Below are positions 1-6,920 of a stretch of DNA of 36,088 nucleotides, in pieces (the stretch's first letter is position 1; each line of letters begins with the position of its first letter). The stretch spans positions 1 through 36,088 of the forward strand of contig CAMCSM010000020.1 in assembly GCA_945877805.1 (NCBI GenBank), given 5' to 3'. The position numbers and the translations under genes were made by a program. Below the pieces are notes generated by a model. That model saw only the letters and a program-made list of their open reading frames with translations, did no database searches and had not been told where the DNA came from. This DNA comes from Methylacidiphilum caldifontis. Its GTDB lineage: Bacteria > Verrucomicrobiota > Verrucomicrobiia > Methylacidiphilales > CAMAQI01.

Positions 1-13
1 AACGTAGGTGGAC

Positions 14-146
14 GCCGACACTTTGAGCCCATCTCCAAATCCTTGTTGACTCATTCAACTCCCGTCTCATTCGGATTGCGTCCTGCAATCTCTTCTCCCG
101 CTGCTGCGGGATCAGATCGTCTCCTCCAAACCCTTTTGGAGTCGGC
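14..146. other. cluster of five short hairpins inside a closing pairing
   Basis: This gene-free stretch contains five consecutive hairpins with loops of four or five bases: 22-39 (TTTGAG with CTC/AAA, one bulged C), 45-59 (GTTGA/TCAAC), 74-90 (GATTGC/GCAATC), 96-111 (TCCCGC/GCGGGA) and 124-141 (CTCCAAA/TTTGGAG). GCCGAC at 14-19 can pair with GTCGGC at 141-146, which would enclose the set; G141 is shared with the last hairpin. CTCATTC occurs twice (50-56, 66-72). No ORF of useful length runs through it. I do not recognise it as a known RNA or repeat. It could be a structured RNA, a mobile-element end or a dispersed intergenic repeat. The rest of 1-277 shows only a weak hairpin at 236-253. Confidence 0.45.
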
Positions 147-277
147 TCCCCATTAAAATTGTATTTTTCATAACTATTTAATGGCACGTTGTTTATATAT
201 CTTAGGAAGTTTACTTCACTAAGAGCAAAGGTCACAAAGGTTTTAAAGCCTTTAACTTTCGTTGTGCCCCTCTACCC

Positions 278-778
278 TTAAGCTCCGTGAATCAGCGGCT
301 CAATATCACTGGCAGAGATGACTTTATCGATGTTCAACAAAGTTTTAACGGAACCTTTTACTTTGGCCATTCCCGTAATATAATCGGTTTTTAATTTATT
401 GCCAAAATCAGGGGTCTCTTCGATATCGGTGGTCGGGATATTAACAACCTCTTCAACTGCATCGACAATTAAACCGACTTGAGAGATCGCCCCTGAGTCA
501 TGCTCAATTTGCATAACGATGATACAGGTTCTTTCGGTCGTTTCAATCACTGCAAGTTTAAAGCGCATCCGAAGATCGACCACGGGAATGACTTTTCCGC
601 GGAGATTAATGACCCCTTTAAGATAGTCGGGCATCTTCGGGACGGGAGTAATATTGAGCATCCGAATGATCTCTCGAACCTTGAGGACGCCGACCCCGTA
701 CGATTCATGTCCAAGAACAAAAGTAAGATATTTTCCGGCGTTTGCTTGAGTCCGTGGGGTATCAGCGACAATGCTCAT
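278..778 (-). CDS. cheW: chemotaxis coupling protein CheW
   Basis: CheW is the cytoplasmic adaptor that links chemoreceptors to the histidine kinase CheA. The 166-residue product has the family length and a single CheW domain filling almost all of it. The diagnostic stretch is near residues 35-75: VREIIRM, then PDYLKGVINLRGKVIPVVDLR, which is the conserved core of the family. There is no signal peptide or membrane segment. It lies 44 bases downstream of the LysR gene on the same strand, so the two may share a transcript. No other chemotaxis gene is visible; partners may lie left of the window or elsewhere. No clear Shine-Dalgarno precedes the ATG. The family assignment is firm, but which chemosensory array it serves is unknown. 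Confidence 0.93.
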   Translation of the reverse strand: MSIVADTPRTQANAGKYLTFVLGHESYGVGVLKVREIIRMLNITPVPKMPDYLKGVINLRGKVIPVVDLRMRFKLAVIETTERTCIIVMQIEHDSGAISQVGLIVDAVEEVVNIPTTDIEETPDFGNKLKTDYITGMAKVKGSVKTLLNIDKVISASDIEPLIHGA

Positions 779-6295: not shown

Positions 6296-6300
6296 ATTTT

Positions 6301-6334
6301 ACCACGGGAGGGACGACTTCCACGTCGTCCCATT
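6301..6334 (-). repeat. REP palindrome, left flank of RAYT
   Basis: An 8-bp perfect stem (6310-6317 with 6324-6331) closes a six-base loop. Read on the minus strand it matches the two REP copies at 6835-6918, continuing into TCCCGTGG after the stem. It is thus in inverted orientation relative to the right-hand copies, so the RAYT gene is framed by inverted REPs. It begins a few bases after the nrtC stop. Confidence 0.8.
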
Positions 6335-6336
6335 TC

Positions 6337-6789
6337 TTACAGCGGGTTTATTTCACCCTTCAATTCCCAATCGCATGGTTGGGTGACGTAACCATGACGA
6401 ACTGGATTTTGCTCAACATATCTCCATTTCGAAGGATAAAGGGTTCGGTTAATCGATGTATCCCAAAAGTCTCGCTGCCACAGTTCTGTTCCCAAGATCG
6501 GGATCAACTTTCGGGCGACTTGGGATTTCCACCATTTCATCCATCCTTGGAGAGGAATAGATCCATCTCCTTTGGGTTTTGCGAAGAAATGAACGTGGTC
6601 GGGAAGAATGATGAATTTTCCAACGACCCATCCTTTCGATTCCTTCCAAAATTGAGTCATGTAATAAAGAGAATCGGAATGGCAAAGGACTTTTTGACGA
6701 TTTTTTGTGCATACTGTCAGAAAAATAATTCGTTCATCATCATGACGGAGATCTTTGAAGTGATGAGGGGCTTTGCGTCCGACTTCCAT
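6337..6789 (-). CDS. REP-associated tyrosine transposase (RAYT, IS200-like)
   Basis: RAYTs are single-copy Y1 HUH transposase relatives that act on REP palindromes. The 150-residue protein is full length and apparently intact. It contains IIFLTVCTKNR near residues 21-31, the HUH metal-binding motif HVH at 65-67 (ILPDHVHFF), WQRDFWD near 104-110, and the candidate catalytic Tyr124 in RYVEQNPVRHG, the usual RAYT C-terminal signature. It lies antisense between two co-directional nitrate ATPase genes and is flanked by inverted REPs, so the element clearly arrived within an operon. Either transcription reads through it or nrtD has gained its own signals. The family call is firm; present activity is unknown. 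Confidence 0.9.
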   Translation of the reverse strand: MEVGRKAPHHFKDLRHDDERIIFLTVCTKNRQKVLCHSDSLYYMTQFWKESKGWVVGKFIILPDHVHFFAKPKGDGSIPLQGWMKWWKSQVARKLIPILGTELWQRDFWDTSINRTLYPSKWRYVEQNPVRHGYVTQPCDWELKGEINPL

Positions 6790-6834
6790 GAGAGATTAAA
6801 CACGGGGGTTGGGGAAAGGTTGCAGGGAATTATA

Positions 6835-6918
6835 AATGGGACGACGTGGAAGTCGTCCTTCCCGTGGGAGGTGGAGAATGGGACGACGTGGAAGTCGTCC
6901 TTCCCGATGGAGGTGAAA
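6835..6918 (+). repeat. tandem 42-bp REP repeat carrying the nrtD ribosome-binding site
   Basis: Two copies, 6835-6876 and 6877-6918, differ at four positions near their 3' ends. Each has the REP hairpin GGGACGAC / GTCGTCC with loop GTGGAA (stems at 6838-6845/6852-6858 and 6880-6887/6894-6900) and a trailing GGAGGTG. In the second copy this GGAGGTG (6909-6915) lies five bases before the nrtD ATG and serves as its Shine-Dalgarno, so the repeat unit includes a ribosome-binding site. Confidence 0.82.
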
Positions 6919-6920
6919 TT

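Follow-up and report, generated by a model that had tools for sequence, protein, structure and literature searches.

A dispersed row of hairpins with fixed loops and changing stems in Methylacidiphilum, probably a small mobile DNA element

Small structured repeats are, as a rule, recognised by their sequence, with blastn as the usual search. The BOX elements of Streptococcus pneumoniae (PMC3049150) are small, modular, structured and intergenic, often cluster with other repeats, vary in module number, carry terminal inverted repeats and target-site duplications, and are thought to be non-autonomous and mobile. The MITEs ERIC (RU-1) and YPAL (RU-2) appear in PMC2229807 as structured, non-coding sequences of 100-200 nt scattered between genes. 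For the REP, REPIN and BIME repeats with their RAYT (TnpA-REP), PMC6006769 and PMC3733652 describe single-stranded DNA hairpins in many intergenic copies together with a tyrosine transposase type in the genome, the REPs being single hairpins of ~20-65 nt whose foot is GTAG/GTGG, or CnGA in class 3. The CsrB/RsmZ RNAs (Rfam RF00166) are hairpin rows that carry GGA in their loops and linkers.

The repeat described here has one copy at the left end of a 36,088-nt stretch of Methylacidiphilum caldifontis DNA (the window, i.e. the whole stretch analysed), and it shares the small size, modularity, intergenic position and clustering of BOX, the many hairpin copies of REP, the length and scatter of ERIC and YPAL and, on its minus strand, the GGA arrangement of CsrB/RsmZ. 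However, compared by description, it has no terminal inverted repeat and a duplication of at most 3 nt where BOX has both features; unlike REP it is a fixed row of four hairpins with feet other than GTAG/GTGG; unlike ERIC and YPAL it lacks terminal inverted repeats and is a hairpin row, where theirs is one long hairpin; and its score against CsrB/RsmZ is far below gathering, its copies being dispersed and often broken. No account of this family was found by title or abstract opening in the literature covered, outside which lie most subscription papers and all bioRxiv preprints. We have filed the element as new among small structured interspersed repeats and not as a member of BOX, REP, the strict MITEs or any Rfam family. 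It keeps its shape and loops and replaces its stems, and a covariance model and a loop-and-linker pattern reached further than a sequence search, in which a 184-nt query matched 2 of 60 related genomes (G000, that of the window, and the congener G002).

Structure of the window copy

Base 1 of the window is a contig end lying inside a dispersed repeat of about 176 nt, the first 30 nt of which are cut off. Blastn against the own genome, complete copies and their junctions identify positions 1-146 (plus strand) as a truncated copy of subfamily A: complete copies start with TGTCGAAG, 30 nt to the left of window base 1, and end with GTCGGC, and the missing ~30 nt at the 5' end read TGTCGAAGATCCGCCGTAGTTCTGAAAGAA in other copies. 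A core common to all subfamilies, consisting of a linker and four hairpins, occupies 32-146 (plus strand) and scores 144.6 bits with model R1 and 118.9 bits with model R2. It is adjoined by a second repeat (module 2; 147-230, plus strand) with the palindrome TCTTAGGAAGTTTACTTCACTAAGA, which is seen also without the element.

An earlier note on this DNA, made from the letters alone, had drawn five consecutive hairpins, and all five can be read by inspection at 22-39 (stem TTTGAG/CTCCAAA, with one bulge), 45-59 (GTTGA/TCAAC), 74-90 (GATTGC/GCAATC), 96-111 (TCCCGC/GCGGGA) and 124-141 (CTCCAAA/TTTGGAG); GCCGAC at 14-19 is likewise complementary to GTCGGC at 141-146, base 141 being common to the last hairpin. 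Folded as RNA, the plus strand of window 1-160 reaches -48.4 kcal/mol against -33.8 +/- 3.8 for 200 shuffles (z -3.86, none as good), and the minus strand gives z -2.11 with 4 of 200 shuffles as good. DNA folds of copies elsewhere give z -8.1 (L144), -7.0 (L145) and -7.9 (L155).

Comparison of copies keeps hairpins 3-5 of this drawing, redraws hairpin 2 and leaves hairpin 1 without support outside the window's own subfamily. Hairpin 1 (22-39, plus strand) is weak, lies outside the shared structure and has no consistent partner in other subfamilies. Hairpin 2 lies at 57-66 (plus strand), with the fixed loop TCCC and a 3-bp stem (3-9 bp in other copies) whose outer pair is A-C in the window copy; this TCCC hairpin, first recognised in divergent copies, excludes the one drawn at 45-59, and 3 of its 3 pairs are changed on both sides, with 79% of cells paired. 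For hairpin 3 (74-90, plus strand; loop GTCCT), where some copies carry an extra 23-nt hairpin between CTGC repeats, the corresponding values are 4 of 6 pairs and 96.8%. Hairpin 4 (96-111) together with an outer 3-bp helix (91-93 with 114-116) spans 91-116 (plus strand) and has all 9 pairs changed on both sides, as has hairpin 5 (124-141, plus strand; loop CCC(T)) for its 7, with 95.1% of cells paired. The multibranch core closed by a sixth pairing, also proposed earlier, is not supported: the GCCGAC arm (14-19, plus strand) finds its partner GTCGGC in subfamily A copies only, with no compensatory change seen there, and the 5' arms elsewhere are unrelated.

These counts come from 21 diverse matches at 20 loci, drawn from 55 loci with near-duplicates and long-insert copies left out. 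Both sides change in 23 of the 25 stem pairs, 92.2% of the 472 cells are paired (69.2% in shuffles) and 115 cells are changed on both sides (29.9 in shuffles), cell counts that overstate the number of events, since copies related to each other do not count independently. The covariation score of 0.548 was reached in 0 of 500 shuffles, which gave 0.182, and slid structures score at most 0.174. The alignment (A5) was fitted to R1, a model of 19 cores, which favours hairpins 3-5; hairpin 2 as counted is absent from R1, which used the 45-59 hairpin later replaced by the TCCC hairpin. A plain MAFFT alignment (A2), made without structure fitting, already has both-side changes in hairpins 3, 4 and 5, in the last after one gap was moved in 4 rows. 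Alignments A1 (one row misoriented, one over-long) and A4 (MAFFT, hairpins 4 and 5 misplaced) were excluded from the counts. While the stems vary in the 21 copies, the loops and linkers are fixed, and the weaker R1 matches are subfamilies with other stems and the same hairpin order and loops (TCCC, RTCCT, CCC or TTCC), in which the linkers TTGA-(C/T)TC and CTC-NN-TC are also constant, with exceptions.

Strong covariation need not mean RNA, since the wobble pairs here are without strand preference. G-U pairs are usually commoner in RNA stems, and if one strand acted as RNA its G-U pairs should exceed the A-C pairs, i.e. the G-U pairs of the other strand. The 472 cells comprise 426 Watson-Crick, 9 G-T, 12 A-C and 25 other pairs; wobble pairs are thus rare and even between the strands, which favours selection or copying as DNA hairpins over a stranded RNA, although 21 wobble cells are a small number.

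The absence of a gene, claimed at the outset, holds. The open minus-strand frame 2-271 (90 aa) was rejected as a protein gene: it has no Pfam match and is broken in other copies by length changes of 23 and 11 nt, neither a multiple of 3. An Rfam search of the window reported two tRNAs only, and over 14-146 no known RNA family at gathering level. Two outcomes had been named beforehand as speaking against the drawn structure, conserved copies without compensatory stem changes and a real gene running through the stretch, and neither was found.

Copies, junctions and relatives

Blastn of window 1-280 against the own genome gave at least 43 matches (40 of 129 first-look candidates scored), several of them at contig ends, so that the further copies which the earlier note proposed to look for exist by the dozen in this genome, with more in relatives. 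Dispersed, short, non-coding and present in large number, the copies are those of a small interspersed repeat (MITE-like in the broad sense); they are intergenic, mosaic and often broken. Among 32 copies examined, 20 have ORFs of at least 120 aa on both sides (7 convergent, 10 tandem, 3 divergent) and 5 overlap a mechanical ORF; the window element itself lies 131 nt past the end of a CheW-domain gene reading towards it. Two copies (L025 and L086) are 85 nt long as against about 176, with an internal deletion between CTCCAA repeats.

The ends TGTC...GTCGGC are identical in the 13 subfamily A copies that have both ends, in a junction table limited to distinct junctions with at least 12 nt of left flank and an identifiable 3' end. 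Left flanks of the 13 end in TTTCC, TTTTC, TTTCA, CTTCC, CTTCT and similar sequences, and the right flank begins with TCC in 9. No terminal inverted repeats occur at these ends, so that the element falls outside the MITEs as strictly defined. The direct repeat flanking the element is at most TCC (3 nt) among the junctions; longer ones, of 53 and 14 nt, are confined to two tRNA loci.

At L030 and L037 the flanking modules are present without the element. L037 (G000) is the same locus as L046 (G002), which has the element, and the two are collinear on both sides; this is the one locus pair with filled and unfilled orthologous sites, and in the unfilled one a short stretch has been replaced as well. 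The difference may reflect loss in G000 rather than gain. L023 and L050 have common flanks and each contains a copy, so some copies are older than the divergence of G000 and G002.

Two tRNA loci misfit a simple insertion model. At tRNA-Gly, a fragment of which forms the site in the congener G001 with the copy 3' of it, the core is followed in both G000 and G001 by a repeat of the tRNA end, TCCCTCTGCCCGCA; the two cores differ at 4 of 107 positions, with much lower similarity in the 5' arm and no alignment of the outer flanks. At tRNA-Cys the core lies in G000 between two exact 53-nt direct repeats, and G001 has one 53-nt stretch, ~20 nt of core start and then one unrelated palindrome. The 53-nt repeat was considered as a long target-site duplication and rejected, the congener locus holding that ~20 nt of core start. 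In the terminator-like palindrome 3' of tRNA-Cys (L145, L218) the stems of G000 and G001 have nothing in common, as though palindromes were replaced as units.

Of the order's 62 genomes, model R1 matches three, 34 times in G000, 2 times in G001 and 20 times in G002, and none of the remaining 59. With R2, at ~9 candidates scored per genome, at least 4 of 384 genomes of the class have matches, i.e. the three congeners and G147, a member of another family. Deeper scoring with R2 in 12 genomes gave 44 matches in G000, 2 in G001, 20 in G002 and 2 in G147, and none in 8 other genomes of the order; the two in G147 have E values of 1.9e-5 and 9.1e-4 (for one genome) and fold with z -2.6 and -4.1. In a named genome collection that may omit the window's own record, the MAG 'Methylacidiphilum sp. 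Phi' (CAMAQI01) was the sole match of an exact element pattern. Among 387 genomes of the phylum, 4 contain the loop-and-linker pattern (20 matches in G000, 2 each in G069 and G092, 1 in G100), with none from the reversed control among the matches listed. A relation to the family beyond G147 is no more than likely, because the loci of G069, G092 and G100 have weak R2 scores: E 0.0064 (L196), 0.057 (L193) and 0.26 (L195), with L191 and L192 not reported.

Blastn of window 1-235 against phage and plasmid collections gave no match. The loop-and-linker pattern hit 11 viral contigs, none of which was counted as a copy, and carriage as phage or plasmid cargo was rejected: L211 shows a hairpin row by eye, is unreported by R2 at E <= 1 and folds with z -1.79 (10 of 200 shuffles as good), and L208 reaches R2 E 0.005 with hairpin 2 unpaired.

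Weighing the explanations

We read window 1-146, with a probability of about two thirds, as belonging to a family of multi-hairpin repeats: it would be one copy of a small mobile DNA element that is non-coding and non-autonomous. The analysis shows that dozens of copies are dispersed, that four hairpins covary around fixed loops, that the ends are exact, that one locus occurs with and without the element, and that relatives reach beyond the genus. Two possibilities were first raised, a multibranch structured RNA and a mobile-element end (or recombination site) of folded DNA. The conserved covarying structure stands and the evidence leans to mobile DNA, resembling a whole small element and not the end of a larger one; the original observation was right and understated, and its interpretation partly supported. 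Most likely the element functions like the hairpin-based mobile elements of REP, BOX or MITE-like kind. Its single-stranded DNA form would fold into a row of hairpins, of which a putative enzyme acting in trans would read the fixed loops and linkers (TTGACTC, TCCC, CTC-NN-TC, RTCCT, CCC) and not the stems, would cut and join at the ends TGTC...GTCGGC, and would target pyrimidine-rich intergenic sites such as the junction between TTTCC and TCC. Stems could diverge freely under this mechanism because only pairing and loops would matter. If such a loop-reading single-strand enzyme moves the element, its recognition rule would stand beside those of the IS200/IS605 and REP systems and is testable. 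More tentatively, there may be a class of Verrucomicrobiota mobile elements defined by DNA shape, a four-hairpin row with loops and linkers as the code and stems left free, served in trans by a putative single-strand-specific enzyme.

Several observations count against mobility: no mobilising enzyme is linked to the element, clear target-site duplication and terminal inverted repeats are lacking, the unfilled G000 site differs also by its replaced stretch, and the species difference at tRNA-Cys starts inside the core. The tRNA-Gly core, moreover, is far better conserved than its flanks, beyond expectation for an inert parasite, and this would suit a many-copy regulatory RNA, as would covarying stems with fixed loops. 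The minus-strand loops and linkers GGGA, AGGAY, GGG(A) and ATGGA resemble CsrB/RsmZ and would putatively soak up CsrA, whose gene is present in G000 and G001; on the plus strand C-rich loops could instead pair with Shine-Dalgarno sequences. However, the Rfam matches of the 6 loci searched were sub-threshold only, among them weak full-length minus-strand RsmZ matches of 22.7 and 21.1 bits against a gathering score of 44 (E 0.097 and 0.26); G002 (87% complete), host of 20 copies, has no CsrA match; hairpin 5 of subfamily A has no GGA on either strand; and with wobble pairs free of strand bias and many copies broken, a regulatory RNA in either variant is unlikely.

Quite unlikely as well is a repeat driven by its own palindromes, in which template switching or recombination in replication makes, expands and replaces hairpins and mosaic-spacer recombination spreads them with no dedicated enzyme. 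Hairpins gained or lost between short direct repeats (the 23-nt hairpin; the deletions in L025 and L086), the differing palindrome by tRNA-Cys and the strand symmetry of Watson-Crick stems accord with it, but fixed loops, linkers and ends at unrelated places are hard to obtain without a recognising factor. That the element serves a tyrosine integrase for attachment or recombination at tRNA genes is very improbable: the copies 3' of tRNA-Gly (G000) and its fragment (G001), each followed by the repeated tRNA end, and the G001 copy near an integrase gene speak for it, but ARAGORN reports a tRNA in 3 of 54 loci and 0 of 13 further loci, and a phage-like island in G001 explains its own integrase and tRNA fragments. 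Integron attC sites, whose core sites are RYYYAAC/GTTRRRY, group II introns and IscB/TnpB guide RNAs were set aside, none being seen by eye or reported by Rfam.

Candidate enzymes and neighbouring repeats

For the preferred mobile DNA element, tyrosine (HUH) transposases of the REP type, two of which are encoded in G000, would be candidate mobilisers. One of the two Y1_Tnp matches of G000 lies in the window at 6337-6789 (minus strand), and both proteins, at 73.3 and 35.5 bits, are below the NCBIfam cut-off of 80 bits for REP-associated tyrosine transposases. None of eight Y1_Tnp loci contained a subfamily A copy by blastn, and no REPtron was found for the element, which sets it apart from REP/RAYT systems; a subfamily E copy lies ~2.1 kb from a Y1_Tnp gene in G001. 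The RAYT-like gene of the window (region 6300-6920) stands between two nitrate-transport-like ABC genes and is flanked by palindromes of its own, GGGACGACGTGGAAGTCGTCC, possibly forming a REPtron unrelated to the hairpin-array element. A tyrosine integrase gene lies ~165 nt from one copy in G001. Locus L162 (G001:C8:30000-46000) is an island phage-like by its ORFs, with a tyrosine integrase at a tRNA-Gly fragment and three copies of the tRNA 3' end within ~400 nt.

A different sequence, whose inverted ends are CATAGGCGTCAACTTAAG / CTTAAGTTGACGCCTATG, meets hairpins always at one point, after GCTGCTGCG or TCG, as if inserting into them; it is seen at L034, L035, L040, L056, L062, L065, L158 and L159. 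Another repeat, with ends ATAAATCGGTCAAAGACCGAAAC and CATTGAATTCCGATTTAT, surrounds or adjoins several copies (L019, L020, L021, L042 and L183), and the spacers of the genus are mosaics of such repeats.
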